Below, one piece after another: positions 49,804-61,266 of a stretch of 64,000 nucleotides of DNA. The number at the start of each line of letters is the position of its first letter. The stretch's first letter is position 1. The stretch is from Pseudomonadota bacterium. Its GTDB lineage: Bacteria > Pseudomonadota > Alphaproteobacteria > Rhodospirillales > Magnetospirillaceae. Location of the stretch: contig JAJZVW010000004.1 in NCBI GenBank assembly GCA_021847015.1, positions 1 to 64,000 on the forward strand. The letters are read 5' to 3'. The notes below the pieces were generated by a model, which had not been told where the DNA came from, did no database searches, and saw only the letters and a list, made by a program, of their open reading frames with translations. A program made the position numbers and the translations under genes.

Positions 49804-50772
49804 ATGGGCACCACGCACCATACGAAAGTGCTGATCCTGGGTTCGGGGCCGGCCGGTTGCACCGCGGCCATCTATGCGGCACGCGCCAACCTGGATCCGA
49901 TTCTGGTGGCCGGGCTGCAGCCCGGTGGCCAGCTCACCATAACCACCGATGTCGAGAACTACCCCGGTTTCGCGGACGCCATCCAGGGCCCCTGGCTGAT
50001 GGAGCAGATGCAGAAGCAGGCCGAACATGTCGGTGCGCGCTTCATGCACGACACCATCGTCGAGGTCGACGTCTCCAAGCGGCCCTTCCGCTGCATGGGC
50101 GATTCCGGAGACGTCTATCTGGGCGACACCCTGATCATCTCCACCGGCGCCTCGGCGCGCTGGCTCGACATCGAGTCGGAACGCCGGTTCCAGGGTTTCG
50201 GCGTTTCCGCCTGCGCCACATGCGACGGCTTCTTTTTCCGCAACAAGAACGTCGTGGTCGTAGGCGGCGGCAATTCGGCGGTCGAGGAAGCCATTTATTT
50301 GGCCGGCATCGCCGCGAAGGTCACCCTGATCCACCGCCGCGATTCCCTTCGCGCGGAAAAAATCGCCCAGGACCGTCTCTTCGCCAATCCGAAGGTCTCC
50401 GTGCGCTGGGACAGCGCCATCGACGAGATTCTCGGGAGCAGTTCCCCCCCCAGCGTCACCGGAGTGCGTCTCCGGAACGTGAAGACCGGGGAAATGTCGG
50501 AGCTCGCCGCGGACGGCGTATTCATCGCCATCGGCCATTCGCCCAACACCGAATTGTTCAAGGGAAAGGTCGACATCGATTCCGAAGGATACGTCGTCAC
50601 CACCCCGGGAGCGACCACCACCAACATCCCCGGCGTCTTCGCGGCCGGCGACGTCCAGGACAAGGTCTATCGCCAGGCGGTGACCGCCGCCGGCACCGGC
50701 TGCATGGCGGCACTGGAAGCCGAGCGGTTCCTCGCCATCCATGGACACATGGCCGAAGTTGCGGCAGAGTAG
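49804..50772 (+). CDS. trxB: Thioredoxin-disulfide reductase
   Basis: A 322-residue protein with FAD-binding GSGPAG at 13-18, the redox CATC at 137-140 (SACATCDGFFF), the NADPH-binding GGGNSAVEEA and the C-terminal GVFAAGDVQDKVYRQAVTAA. It reduces thioredoxin with NADPH. It follows the peroxiredoxin by 122 bases on the same strand and precedes a LysR gene by 60. Confidence 0.96.
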   Translation: MGTTHHTKVLILGSGPAGCTAAIYAARANLDPILVAGLQPGGQLTITTDVENYPGFADAIQGPWLMEQMQKQAEHVGARFMHDTIVEVDVSKRPFRCMGDSGDVYLGDTLIISTGASARWLDIESERRFQGFGVSACATCDGFFFRNKNVVVVGGGNSAVEEAIYLAGIAAKVTLIHRRDSLRAEKIAQDRLFANPKVSVRWDSAIDEILGSSSPPSVTGVRLRNVKTGEMSELAADGVFIAIGHSPNTELFKGKVDIDSEGYVVTTPGATTTNIPGVFAAGDVQDKVYRQAVTAAGTGCMAALEAERFLAIHGHMAEVAAE

Positions 50773-50832: not shown

Positions 50833-51726
50833 ATGGACTGGGACAAACTCAGGGTTTTTCACGCCGTGGCGGAGGCGGGAAGCTTCACCCATGCGGGCGA
50901 GGTGCTGAACCTAAGCCAGTCGGCGATCAGCCGCCAGATCGGCGCGCTTGAAGAGAGTCTCAGCCTGCCGCTCTTCCACCGGCATGCCCGCGGCCTGATC
51001 CTGACGGAGCAGGGCGAACTCCTTTACAAGACGGCCCGGGAGATCTTTTCCAAACTGGCGATGACCGAGGCTCTCCTGACGGAAAGCCGCGAACGTCCGC
51101 AGGGCCCCCTGAAAATCACGACCACGGTGGCTTTCGGATCGCTGTGGCTGACTCCCCGCATCAAGGAATTCCTCGACCTTTACCCCGACATCCAGGTGAC
51201 CATGGTCCTCCATGACGGGGAACTCGATCTCGCCATGCGCGAGGCCGACGTGGCCATCCGCATGACCCCCCCGCGTCAGCCGGACCTGATCCAGCGCCAC
51301 CTGCTGACCATGAACTACAACGTCTATGCCGCGCCGGAATATCTCAAACGGCACGGCATGCCCAGAACCGCCGAGGATCTCGACAACCACAACATCATCG
51401 TATTCGGCGACGATCAACGCGCGTCCCTGCCGGTGGTGGACGTCAACTGGCTGCTGGGCGCCGGCGCCACCGCCTCGCGCCTGCGCCGCCCGGTCCTGGA
51501 GGTCAACAACATTTACGGCATCTACCGGGCGGTGAAGTCCGGACTGGGCATAGCCGCCCTTCCGGATTACATGAGCCCCGAGACCGACAACCTCGTCCAT
51601 GTGCTGCCCGAACTCAAAGGGCCATCCCTCGACACGTATTTCGTGTATCCCGAGGAACTGCGCCACTCCAAGCGCATCGCCGCCTTCCGCGACTTCTTGT
51701 TGCACAAGATACAGGAAACGCCCTAA
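50833..51726 (+). CDS. LysR-family transcriptional regulator
   Basis: A 297-residue protein. The N-terminal winged helix (LRVFHAVAEAGSFTHAGEVL, NLSQSAISRQIGALEESLSL) is standard, and the rest is the periplasmic-binding-like effector domain (GPLKITTTVAFGSLWLTPRI). It follows trxB closely on the same strand, so it may share the redox transcript or control it. Effector unknown. Confidence 0.93.
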   Translation: MDWDKLRVFHAVAEAGSFTHAGEVLNLSQSAISRQIGALEESLSLPLFHRHARGLILTEQGELLYKTAREIFSKLAMTEALLTESRERPQGPLKITTTVAFGSLWLTPRIKEFLDLYPDIQVTMVLHDGELDLAMREADVAIRMTPPRQPDLIQRHLLTMNYNVYAAPEYLKRHGMPRTAEDLDNHNIIVFGDDQRASLPVVDVNWLLGAGATASRLRRPVLEVNNIYGIYRAVKSGLGIAALPDYMSPETDNLVHVLPELKGPSLDTYFVYPEELRHSKRIAAFRDFLLHKIQETP

Positions 51727-51879
51727 GGCACCGGAACGGCGGCAGCCGGGCGGGCTAAAGTCCATGAAAAAAAGGTCATTATACAGCGAGAAAACGGGAA
51801 AAGACATGTCATCTCCGCATACCAAAGACCTCATTTTTTGCATGGTTGTGAGGCCCAACCTGTCGTAAACAGGAGTGGT

Positions 51880-52040
51880 GGAGCTGCTGCATCACAACGC
51901 TCACGAGTTCGGACGGGCGCCTTACCCCGTCCTTTTCCCCGGGTGCGACGCCCGGGTCTCCAGGGTCTCTGACCCTACGTCTCTAGACGTGAACCTCCCT
52001 GTACGACTTAGCCCTCGGCTCGACCGAGGGCTTTCTTTTG
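51880..52040 (+). ncRNA. Candidate structured RNA: array of five hairpins ending in a terminator
   Basis: Five perfect hairpins lie in a row: GGACGGG/CCCGTCC followed by TTTT, CCCGGG/CCCGGG, AGGGTC/GACCCT, ACGTCT/AGACGT, and GCCCTCGG/CCGAGGGC followed by TTTCTTTT. A single-stranded GAACCTCCCTGTACGACTTA sits before the last hairpin and could pair with ribosome binding sites. No reading frame fits. The final T-run sets the strand. The RNA family is not recognised; the promoter is not clear. Confidence 0.5.
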
Positions 52041-52350
52041 GGCACGAGACCGGTTCCGATCAATCGGAATCCGGTCCAGGTTTGTCTTGCCCTCGCCGGG
52101 CGCAGGCTCCGCCTGCTTGGCCGCCGCCTCAATGGCGGCATTCATAGATTTTGCGGTCCGATTCACCAGACGGAAGGTTCAGACCATGAACCTTCCGTCC
52201 GGATTGGACCACTGGCGGACAGGGGCCGCCCCCTCCCCCGCTCTTAGGGCCGCATACCGCCGAAAAAAGGCCCGGGCACGGTTGACGCGCCGTCCCGGGG
52301 AAATTATCTCCATCGCAACGCAGCATACATCCGGCAGTTGGAGACCGCAC
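52040..52350. other. Hairpin-rich gene-free stretch before the phasin gene
   Basis: No gene is supported. Strong inverted repeats continue here: ACCGGTTCCGAT against ATCGGAATCCGGT near 52050, and a perfect 13-bp stem GACGGAAGGTTCA/TGAACCTTCCGTC near 52171-52201. The stretch is probably a leader or further structured RNA for the phasin gene. Confidence 0.4.
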
Positions 52351-52791
52351 ATGGCCGGCCCGCAGAATGCGCAATTCCCCGATATCGGCATCGGACGCTT
52401 TCTGGGCGACTTGCGGATACCGGATTTCTCCGTGGACGCCTTCGCCACCAGCCAGCGGCGCAATTTCGACACGCTGACCCAGGCCGGACGCCTCGCTTAC
52501 GAGGGCATGCAGGCGGCGGCACAGCAGCACCTGGACATAATGCGCCACACCATGGACGGGATGGTCCAGGCCGCCAAGGGCATCGCCGAACCGGGCACCG
52601 CCCAGGACAAGGCATCCATGCAGATGGAAATGGTCAAGACGCTGCTGGAGCGGACCTTCGCCGATATGCGCGGGGTCGGCGAGACGATCGCCAAGGCCAA
52701 CACGGACGTCTTCGACCTCCTCAACCACCGCCTGGCTCAAGGTTTGGACGAATTGCGCGAGGCGTTCACGATCGCCGCCGCGCCGCGTTAA
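52351..52791 (+). CDS. Phasin-family protein
   Basis: A 146-residue helical protein. Residues 40-140 carry the phasin pattern (QRRNFDTLTQAGRLAYEGMQ, then AKANTDVFDLLNHRLAQGLD). Phasins coat polyhydroxyalkanoate granules. The start is the ATG giving MAGPQNAQFPDIGIG; the longer open frame upstream crosses hairpin-rich sequence. ubiA follows 33 bases later. Confidence 0.8.
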   Translation: MAGPQNAQFPDIGIGRFLGDLRIPDFSVDAFATSQRRNFDTLTQAGRLAYEGMQAAAQQHLDIMRHTMDGMVQAAKGIAEPGTAQDKASMQMEMVKTLLERTFADMRGVGETIAKANTDVFDLLNHRLAQGLDELREAFTIAAAPR

Positions 52792-60904: not shown

Positions 60905-60934
60905 TTGACGCCCCTTTTGTGGCGAAATTATAGT
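60905..60934 (+). promoter_or_regulatory. Sigma-70 promoter for the cobalt transporter
   Basis: TTGACG and TATAGT are spaced by 18 bases (17 if the -10 is read TTATAG). Transcription would begin close to the first base of the riboswitch. Confidence 0.7.
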
Positions 60935-60940
60935 CCCTGT

Positions 60941-61160
60941 CGATGGTTCTTCGCATCCCTTGGATGCGAAGTGAAAAGGGAACCCGGTGCGGTGTCCGAA
61001 AAGGCGCCAACCCCGGGGCTGCCCCCGCAACTGTAAGCGGAGAGGGTTCGGCCGCGAGCGATCGCCACTGGCCGGTCCGCCACGATCCACCGGCGGACGG
61101 AACACGGCCGGGAAGGCTATGCCGAACCTCATGACCCGCGAGCCAGGAGACCTGCCATCG
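60941..61160 (+). promoter_or_regulatory. Cobalamin riboswitch
   Basis: The outer stem CGATGG/CCATCG closes a region with GGGAACCCGGTG, the conserved B12 box core GCTGCCCCCGCAACTGTAAGCG and GAGCCAGGAGACCTGCC at its end. These are the defining elements of the cobalamin riboswitch. It lies 107 bases before cbiM. When B12 is abundant it should shut down expression of the cobalt importer downstream. Confidence 0.95.
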
Positions 61161-61266
61161 CATCAGCGTGCGCACGCTTTTCCGGGCGGGGTGACCCGGA
61201 AAACGGAATCCGGTCCCGTGTCGTATCGGGGGCGGAGTGCGCCGCACCCGTATGTGAGGTGGACCT

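Follow-up and report, generated by a model that had tools for sequence, protein, structure and literature searches.

The interval between a lysR gene and a phasin gene (52351–52791) in the window, by which we mean the whole 64,000-nucleotide stretch of DNA analysed here, is occupied by a succession of hairpins. This raises the question of whether the hairpins belong to one regulatory RNA and, if so, to which kind. We find that the interval consists of two unrelated halves, a small-RNA gene with its control region (51806–52039) and a set of dispersed repeats (52048–52217), with the phasin gene downstream of both (Table 1). Judged from its sequence, the segment 51878–52039 reads as a single small-RNA gene with a promoter, five hairpins, a CCUCCC segment and a terminator. 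It probably encodes a trans-acting antisense RNA of the AbcR type that belongs to the trxB–vtlR locus and is linked to the regulator VtlR; the slot, the operator and the motif layout together lead to this assignment. Elsewhere in the window, a cobalamin riboswitch was detected (60927–61173, + strand, 116.8 bits).

Table 1. Features of the trxB–lysR–small RNA locus and the adjoining repeats (coordinates of the window).
Feature	Coordinates	Strand	Basis or remarks
trxB, thioredoxin reductase	49804–50772	+	TIGR01292, 409 bits; synteny; heads the conserved trxB–lysR–sRNA unit
lysR, VtlR/LsrB homolog, predicted activator of the sRNA	50833–51726	+	Pfam HTH_1 and LysR_substrate
Predicted LysR/VtlR operator ATGTCATCTCCGCAT	51806–51820	+	7/8 match to ATGC-N7-GCAT
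Predicted promoter	51843–51871	+	TGG at 51843–51845, −10 TAAACA at 51866–51871; start near 51878
Predicted sRNA, about 155–162 nt	51878–52039	+	Fold, conservation, promoter register, 60.4 bits to the family model
Decayed PhaR-like palindrome GCTGCTGCATCACAACGC	51883–51900	+	At the transcript start; not intact in the window
Hairpin 1	51911–51932	+	7 bp; from sequence and fold
Hairpin 2	51938–51956	+	6 bp CCCGGG/CCCGGG, 8 with one G-U
Hairpin 3	51962–51976	+	6 bp
Hairpin 4	51977–51990	+	5 bp in the fold; family form ACGUCUCCCAGACGU
Anti-Shine-Dalgarno segment GAACCUCCCUGU	51991–52002	+	CCTCCCTGT present in 39 of the 41 loci found by BLAST
Hairpin 5	52010–52032	+	9 bp, then TTTCTTTT
Intrinsic terminator	52010–52039	+	Terminator scan; both-sided changes in 9/9 pairs
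First dispersed palindromic repeat	52048–52140		Genome-wide DNA matches
Second dispersed palindromic repeat	52135–52217		Genome-wide DNA matches

Anatomy of the small-RNA gene

The five hairpins that an earlier note on this DNA had described as ending in a T-rich terminator are all present in sequence and fold, where they span 122 bases. The fold of a 171-nt stretch surpasses those of 199 out of 200 dinucleotide shuffles (z −3.9), and the terminator-like site was located by a scan with a chance expectation of 0.9 in the region. Two of the 41 BLAST-found loci depart from the core of the anti-Shine-Dalgarno segment: L060, which has CTTCCCTGT, and L066, a chance match. In the 120 loci selected by pattern, the segment is invariant by construction. 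The note had also taken GAACCTCCC to be single-stranded. This holds for the family consensus fold, in which the C-rich segment is unpaired, but only partly for the window copy: its minimum-energy fold (frequency 0.0085) pairs 51991–51993 and 51995–51997, and in its centroid structure 7 of the segment's 12 bases are paired. This partial pairing slightly lowers our confidence in the AbcR-type reading.

The window copy, in a relative of Magnetospirillum, is a divergent one and among the lowest-scoring of its family. Its operator is imperfect and lacks the TG-N3-T element, its PhaR-like site is decayed, and the flank of its anti-Shine-Dalgarno segment is shorter by one base. The family form of hairpin 4 holds CUCCCA, which is the M1 motif of AbcR (PMC5461406); the window copy has CUCUAG instead, and M1 is lost.

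Further stems of 12–13 bp had been noted past 52040, before the phasin gene. They exist, but they sit in the dispersed repeats, outside the small RNA, and are explained by them. The segment 52040–52340 folds better than all of 100 shuffles (z −5.8). A 401-base DNA query matches this genome at no fewer than 13 places, and 41 of 61 genomes contain at least one match; among the matches listed, most correspond to parts 208–301 and 250–304 of the query, some in tandem, and fewer to part 296–382. A 24-base core of the first repeat occurs at nine places in this genome with up to three mismatches, and at the same threshold no more than 5 of 21 genomes contain it. First-repeat copies are tandem in some relatives, with a period of 100 bases in G033 and 68 in G021. 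We considered the repeats as part of the small RNA and rejected this, since their copies are scattered in this genome and in relatives.

Family distribution and covariation

Sequences matching 51900–52040 were found in 40 of 149 genomes, this one included. A covariance model built from 46 sequences, the window copy among them, matches in 47 of 61 relatives and in 153 of 289 class genomes (E ≤ 0.001), counts in which near relatives are not independent; this genome has one match. The weak matches include RNAs that score as SorX, and the 20 best loci of the class search have no Rfam match at cut-off. Scanning the named collection by pattern gave at least 120 loci. Those listed comprise 55 from Rhodospirillales, 18 from Acetobacterales, 7 from Hyphomicrobiales, 34 without an assigned order and 6 from other orders, two of which lie outside Alphaproteobacteria (Bdellovibrionales, Thiotrichales) and are perhaps mislabelled. 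Three MAG contigs titled Rhizobium sp. Q54 (L100, L123 and L147) also carry the family, and their labels may be wrong.

In 90 of the 120 loci listed, the gene immediately upstream, on the same strand, is a lysR homolog; the remaining 30 divide into 10 with too little upstream DNA, 5 with lysR elsewhere in the locus and 15 with no lysR match. Two nearby copies of the RNA occur in L053, L057, L058, L062, L064, L078 and L168, and L249 has three family-model matches in a row. Seventy class genomes have no family-model match, 19 of them with a LysR match at E ≤ 1e-60. CCTCCC occurs within 700 bases behind this LysR in five of the 19 (L268, L269, L273, L275 and L278), with a perfect operator dyad in L268 and L275, and was not found within that distance in the other 14.

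Across 109 aligned matches the stems are 94.1% paired, and the covariation score is 0.510, compared to 0.146 for shuffled alignments; slid partners reach no more than 0.155. Fitting of this alignment to the family model favours its score. For 21 closer relatives the score is 0.099 versus 0.062 shuffled, and the count of further pair types is below that of the shuffles (5 versus 7.0). Both-sided changes were observed in 5/5 pairs of hairpin 3 among the 109 sequences and in 0/5 among the 21 closer ones, and in 3/6 pairs of hairpin 2 among 21 sequences. Hairpin 1, misaligned in alignment A5, was left out of the count. Hairpin 4 and CCUCCCUGU hardly vary across the family, and hairpin 4, being almost invariant, gives no covariation evidence. 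Thus, a covariance search in related genomes, which had been proposed as a check, finds stems that covary, and the idea of a structured regulatory RNA with an anti-Shine-Dalgarno segment gains support from the predicted promoter, the terminator, the wide conservation and these stems.

Operator, promoter and the VtlR-like regulator

The LysR protein of the window is 53.1% identical to the annotated VtlR of Rhizobium leguminosarum and 51.4% identical to the S. meliloti LysR located behind trxB; the closest named LysR is that of L177 (89.5%). It contains no cysteine, and the same is true of 72 of the 104 LysR ORFs extracted from related loci. The thiol switch described for LsrB (PMC11975290) thus cannot operate in these proteins. 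That paper also calls LsrB unique to Rhizobiales, and another has already reported that trxB–vtlR is conserved throughout the class (PMC7486931).

Of 150 distinct loci, 102 have a perfect ATGC-N7-GCAT dyad (a T-N11-A box) ahead of the RNA (shuffle mean 0.4); other half-site spacings (3–6 and 8–11) occur in 0–3 of the 150. Four loci were excluded by hand before these counts (L066, L056, L028 and L046, a chance gene match or not behind lysR), and the set also excludes duplicates and loci with fewer than 300 bases upstream. The window itself holds 17 matches at 7/8, so its operator is not significant when taken alone. The full published box, GCAT-N3-TG-N3-T, is present in 29/150 family loci (shuffle mean 1.5). 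When the 102 boxed loci are anchored on the operator, TGG at +37 to +39 and TA at +60 and +61 recur in 61–83% of them, base by base. This places the predicted start near +72 from the operator and the box centre near −65, and the distance from GCAT to the start is 61, as for abcR1.

The link to AbcR comes from four Rhizobiaceae loci (L317, L318, L319 and L325), fetched out of six matches and taken from plasmid-collection records. Each carries trxB–vtlR followed by two ar15 RNAs, and in every case GCAT-N3-TG-N3-T precedes the first ar15 by exactly 61 bases; the full dyad is found at abcR1 in L317, L318 and L325. One of these records, CP090106.1 (L317; 3.7 Mb), is labelled plasmid pSymB and carries trxB–lsrB–abcR; it is probably mislabelled, as we take this locus of S. 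meliloti to be chromosomal. The box of S. meliloti abcR1 has been reported at −61 to −49, with LsrB required (PMC8844928), and in A. tumefaciens the gene order is trxB–vtlR–abcR1–abcR2 and VtlR binds the abcR1 promoter (PMC7486931). Contrary to the former, the latter reports that AbcR of S. meliloti is not under the control of LsrB.

Nine of 25 matching vtlR-type regions were fetched. Four hold ar15 and one SorX, and the other four (L320, L322, L323 and L324) have no Rfam match at E ≤ 0.1 and no family-model match at E ≤ 1. In L321, L322 and L324, no trxB was found in the vicinity of lysR. In L323 (Tistrella pTM3), trxB–lysR is present and the small-RNA slot is empty. An RNA copy with a perfect operator (G406:C4:125825–125930) lies ∼4.8 kb from trxB–lysR if G406:C4 is Tistrella pTM3, where the small RNA has probably become detached from these genes.

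A second candidate control site is the PhaR-like palindrome. The motif core of S. meliloti PhaR, YGCRNYGCR (PMC12542648), occurs 40–160 bases before the RNA core in 78/150 loci (shuffle mean 4.9, maximum 13). It is present in 62 boxed loci, in 46 of which its first occurrence is at +79 to +83, just past the predicted start. The phaR gene was found in 55 of 61 genomes, including this one; G014, without a phaR match, also lacks the motif core in its RNA copy (L048), a single case that proves nothing. Alternatively, the palindrome may form a hairpin at the 5′ end of the RNA, and loci without it show other inverted repeats there, as judged by eye.

We propose that the VtlR/LsrB-like LysR from the neighbouring gene would bind the ATGC-N7-GCAT box near −65 and activate transcription of the RNA, and that the PHB sensor PhaR may repress it through the start site in about half of the related loci, the site in the window being decayed. 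The RNA would expose CCUCCC between hairpin 4 and the terminator, and this segment would pair with Shine-Dalgarno regions, above all in mRNAs that encode the solute-binding proteins of transporters, and block translation.

Predicted targets

Candidate targets were defined by the pattern ACAGGGAGG-N4-9-ATG, the complement of CCUCCCUGU ahead of a start codon. It occurs at 101 places in 26 genomes. The reversed pattern has 11 places, and the composition-matched GACAGGAGG pattern, a control picked after the first target list had been seen, has 73. All 99 loci for the 101 places (two nested pairs) and 70 of the 73 control places entered the comparison; ORFs shorter than 100 residues (26 target, 21 control) and one duplicate each were dropped. 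Solute-binding proteins, identified by Pfam, account for 15 of 72 target ORFs versus 3 of 48 control ORFs (one-sided p = 0.023); L326 and L464 among the controls were scanned singly, and the third was taken to be L426. Signal-peptide-like starts, assigned by a simple rule, follow the same direction (33/72 versus 12/48, one-sided p = 0.016). A sixteenth target case, a third NMT1 member, appears in only one results table and is outside the 15.

The target prediction for the CCTCCC segment, also suggested earlier as a check, thus points to enrichment of solute-binding proteins in relatives. This genome contributes four ORFs to the test, none among the 15. Four of the 15 come from G037 and three from G005, a genome without a family-model match, so that further RNAs with CCUCCC may play a part. 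According to published work, AbcR RNAs silence transport mRNAs through two anti-Shine-Dalgarno motifs (PMC8844928, PMC5461406).

Relation to SorX and MmgR

In sequence comparison, this RNA is nearer to SorX than to AbcR. It could be a SorX-type RNA that shares its descent with Rhodobacter SorX, in which case AbcR would occupy the slot without being related, a possibility that we regard as real, if unlikely. SorX (RF02784) is the best Rfam match of the window copy at 28.9 bits, and both SorX and SorY (RF02651) of Rhodobacter share the CCUCCCUGUUnGAC block before the terminator. Copies linked to lysR also grade into SorX: two of 16 weaker-match loci exceed its cut-off of 46.6 bits (L248, and the lysR-linked L251 at 47.0 bits), and in Paracoccus denitrificans an RNA scoring 52.6 bits (L321, 4037–4125) lies directly behind a VtlR homolog, with trxB not adjacent. 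However, the window copy itself is below the cut-off, and SorX exceeds it in 1 of 61 relatives. Moreover, SorX of R. sphaeroides arises by RNase E cleavage of the ompR-1 3′ UTR, whereas here lysR lies upstream and the RNA has its own predicted promoter. The earlier statement that the RNA matches no family is therefore accurate for the window copy as regards Rfam cut-offs, but in slot, operator and motif layout it has a counterpart in AbcR.

That the RNA belongs to the mmgR family (suhB, alpha-r8; RF00519) and acts on PHB storage and the phasin gene next to it is improbable. MmgR shares the arrangement of a hairpin, CUCCCU (within CCUCCCU here), GACUU and a terminator, and its promoter in S. 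meliloti carries a PhaR site (PMC12542648), as many promoters of the present family appear to do. However, the window copy scores 27.9 bits, below the cut-off of 41, the location differs, and a separate mmgR/suhB over the cut-off is present in this genome (G000:C19:26985–27059, 63.5 bits); membership was rejected on these scores. A PhaR-type site, CGCAACGCA, is found at 52314–52322, some 30 bases ahead of the start codon of the phasin gene. The phasin link implied by the title of the earlier note is not borne out: tblastn, which may miss distant phasins, gave no phasin match in the 120 loci listed, and the phasin mRNA ranks 36th of 47 as a pairing partner. These two results do not support the phasin gene as target or conserved neighbour, and its proximity looks coincidental.

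It is very improbable that the hairpins are only the terminator region or 3′ UTR of a trxB–lysR operon, or repeats, with no separate RNA: the position directly behind lysR, the dispersed repeats that follow and a sigma-70 consensus scan that found no promoter at the small RNA would fit, but the operator, the −10 element and the anti-Shine-Dalgarno core are conserved, and copies occur without a lysR match in 15 of the 120 loci listed and in tandem in seven loci.

Comparison with AbcR

What seems to be new is the RNA itself, a family unlisted in Rfam that follows vtlR and carries the abcR1 operator in Rhodospirillales, Acetobacterales and others. According to PMC3712013, AbcR (alpha-r15) is a family found in Rhizobiaceae and Brucellaceae, and a supplementary figure of PMC8844928 presents predicted abcR homologs in several alphaproteobacteria. 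We found no report of the RNA in the available text of papers on AbcR with VtlR/LsrB, SorX, Rhodospirillales genera or an Azospirillum LysR, a comparison that leaves the sequence tables of PMC7685610 aside; in searchable full texts, strings from the RNA core matched only papers on human cells or cancer. The family opens the origin of AbcR and SorX to testing, offers non-pathogenic hosts for the study of VtlR, and questions a cysteine switch as the general VtlR signal. As a tentative view, which we consider somewhat less likely than its opposite, vtlR and its small RNA would form an ancestral alphaproteobacterial module, the class-wide RNA being its older form and AbcR and SorX-like RNAs local descendants or replacements. 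The older form might read the VtlR signal, not via cysteines, together with PHB status via PhaR, and so rank uptake against storage.

The ar15 covariance model (RF02345) has no match at E ≤ 5 in the region and none in the 289 class genomes, this one included, a result that says little alone; it does match in the four Rhizobiaceae loci. As the family model does not match ar15 there, nor the ar15 model this RNA, common descent with AbcR is not shown, and since the covariance model fails we do not claim ar15 membership.

The likeness to AbcR1 and AbcR2 of Rhizobiaceae and Brucellaceae is one of position, control and layout. Both kinds of RNA occupy the slot behind trxB–vtlR/lsrB, which is also the arrangement in the window, and the ATGC-N7-GCAT operator with GCAT at −61 is common to both, although the window copy matches its dyad at 7 of 8 positions and lacks TG-N3-T. 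They share one CUCCC motif in a hairpin, one between hairpins, and a terminator, although the window copy has lost the hairpin motif. AbcR RNAs bind Hfq and repress mRNAs of ABC transporters; solute-binding-protein targets are published for AbcR and predicted for the present family, from a sequence-based enrichment in relatives. In contrast, the second motif of AbcR (M2) is GUUCCC (PMC5461406), where this family has CCUCCC. AbcR RNAs come as several copies, usually in tandem, whereas this genome has a single copy and some relatives have tandem ones. Finally, unlike AbcR, many copies of this family carry a PhaR-like site, and their presumed regulator mostly lacks cysteines.
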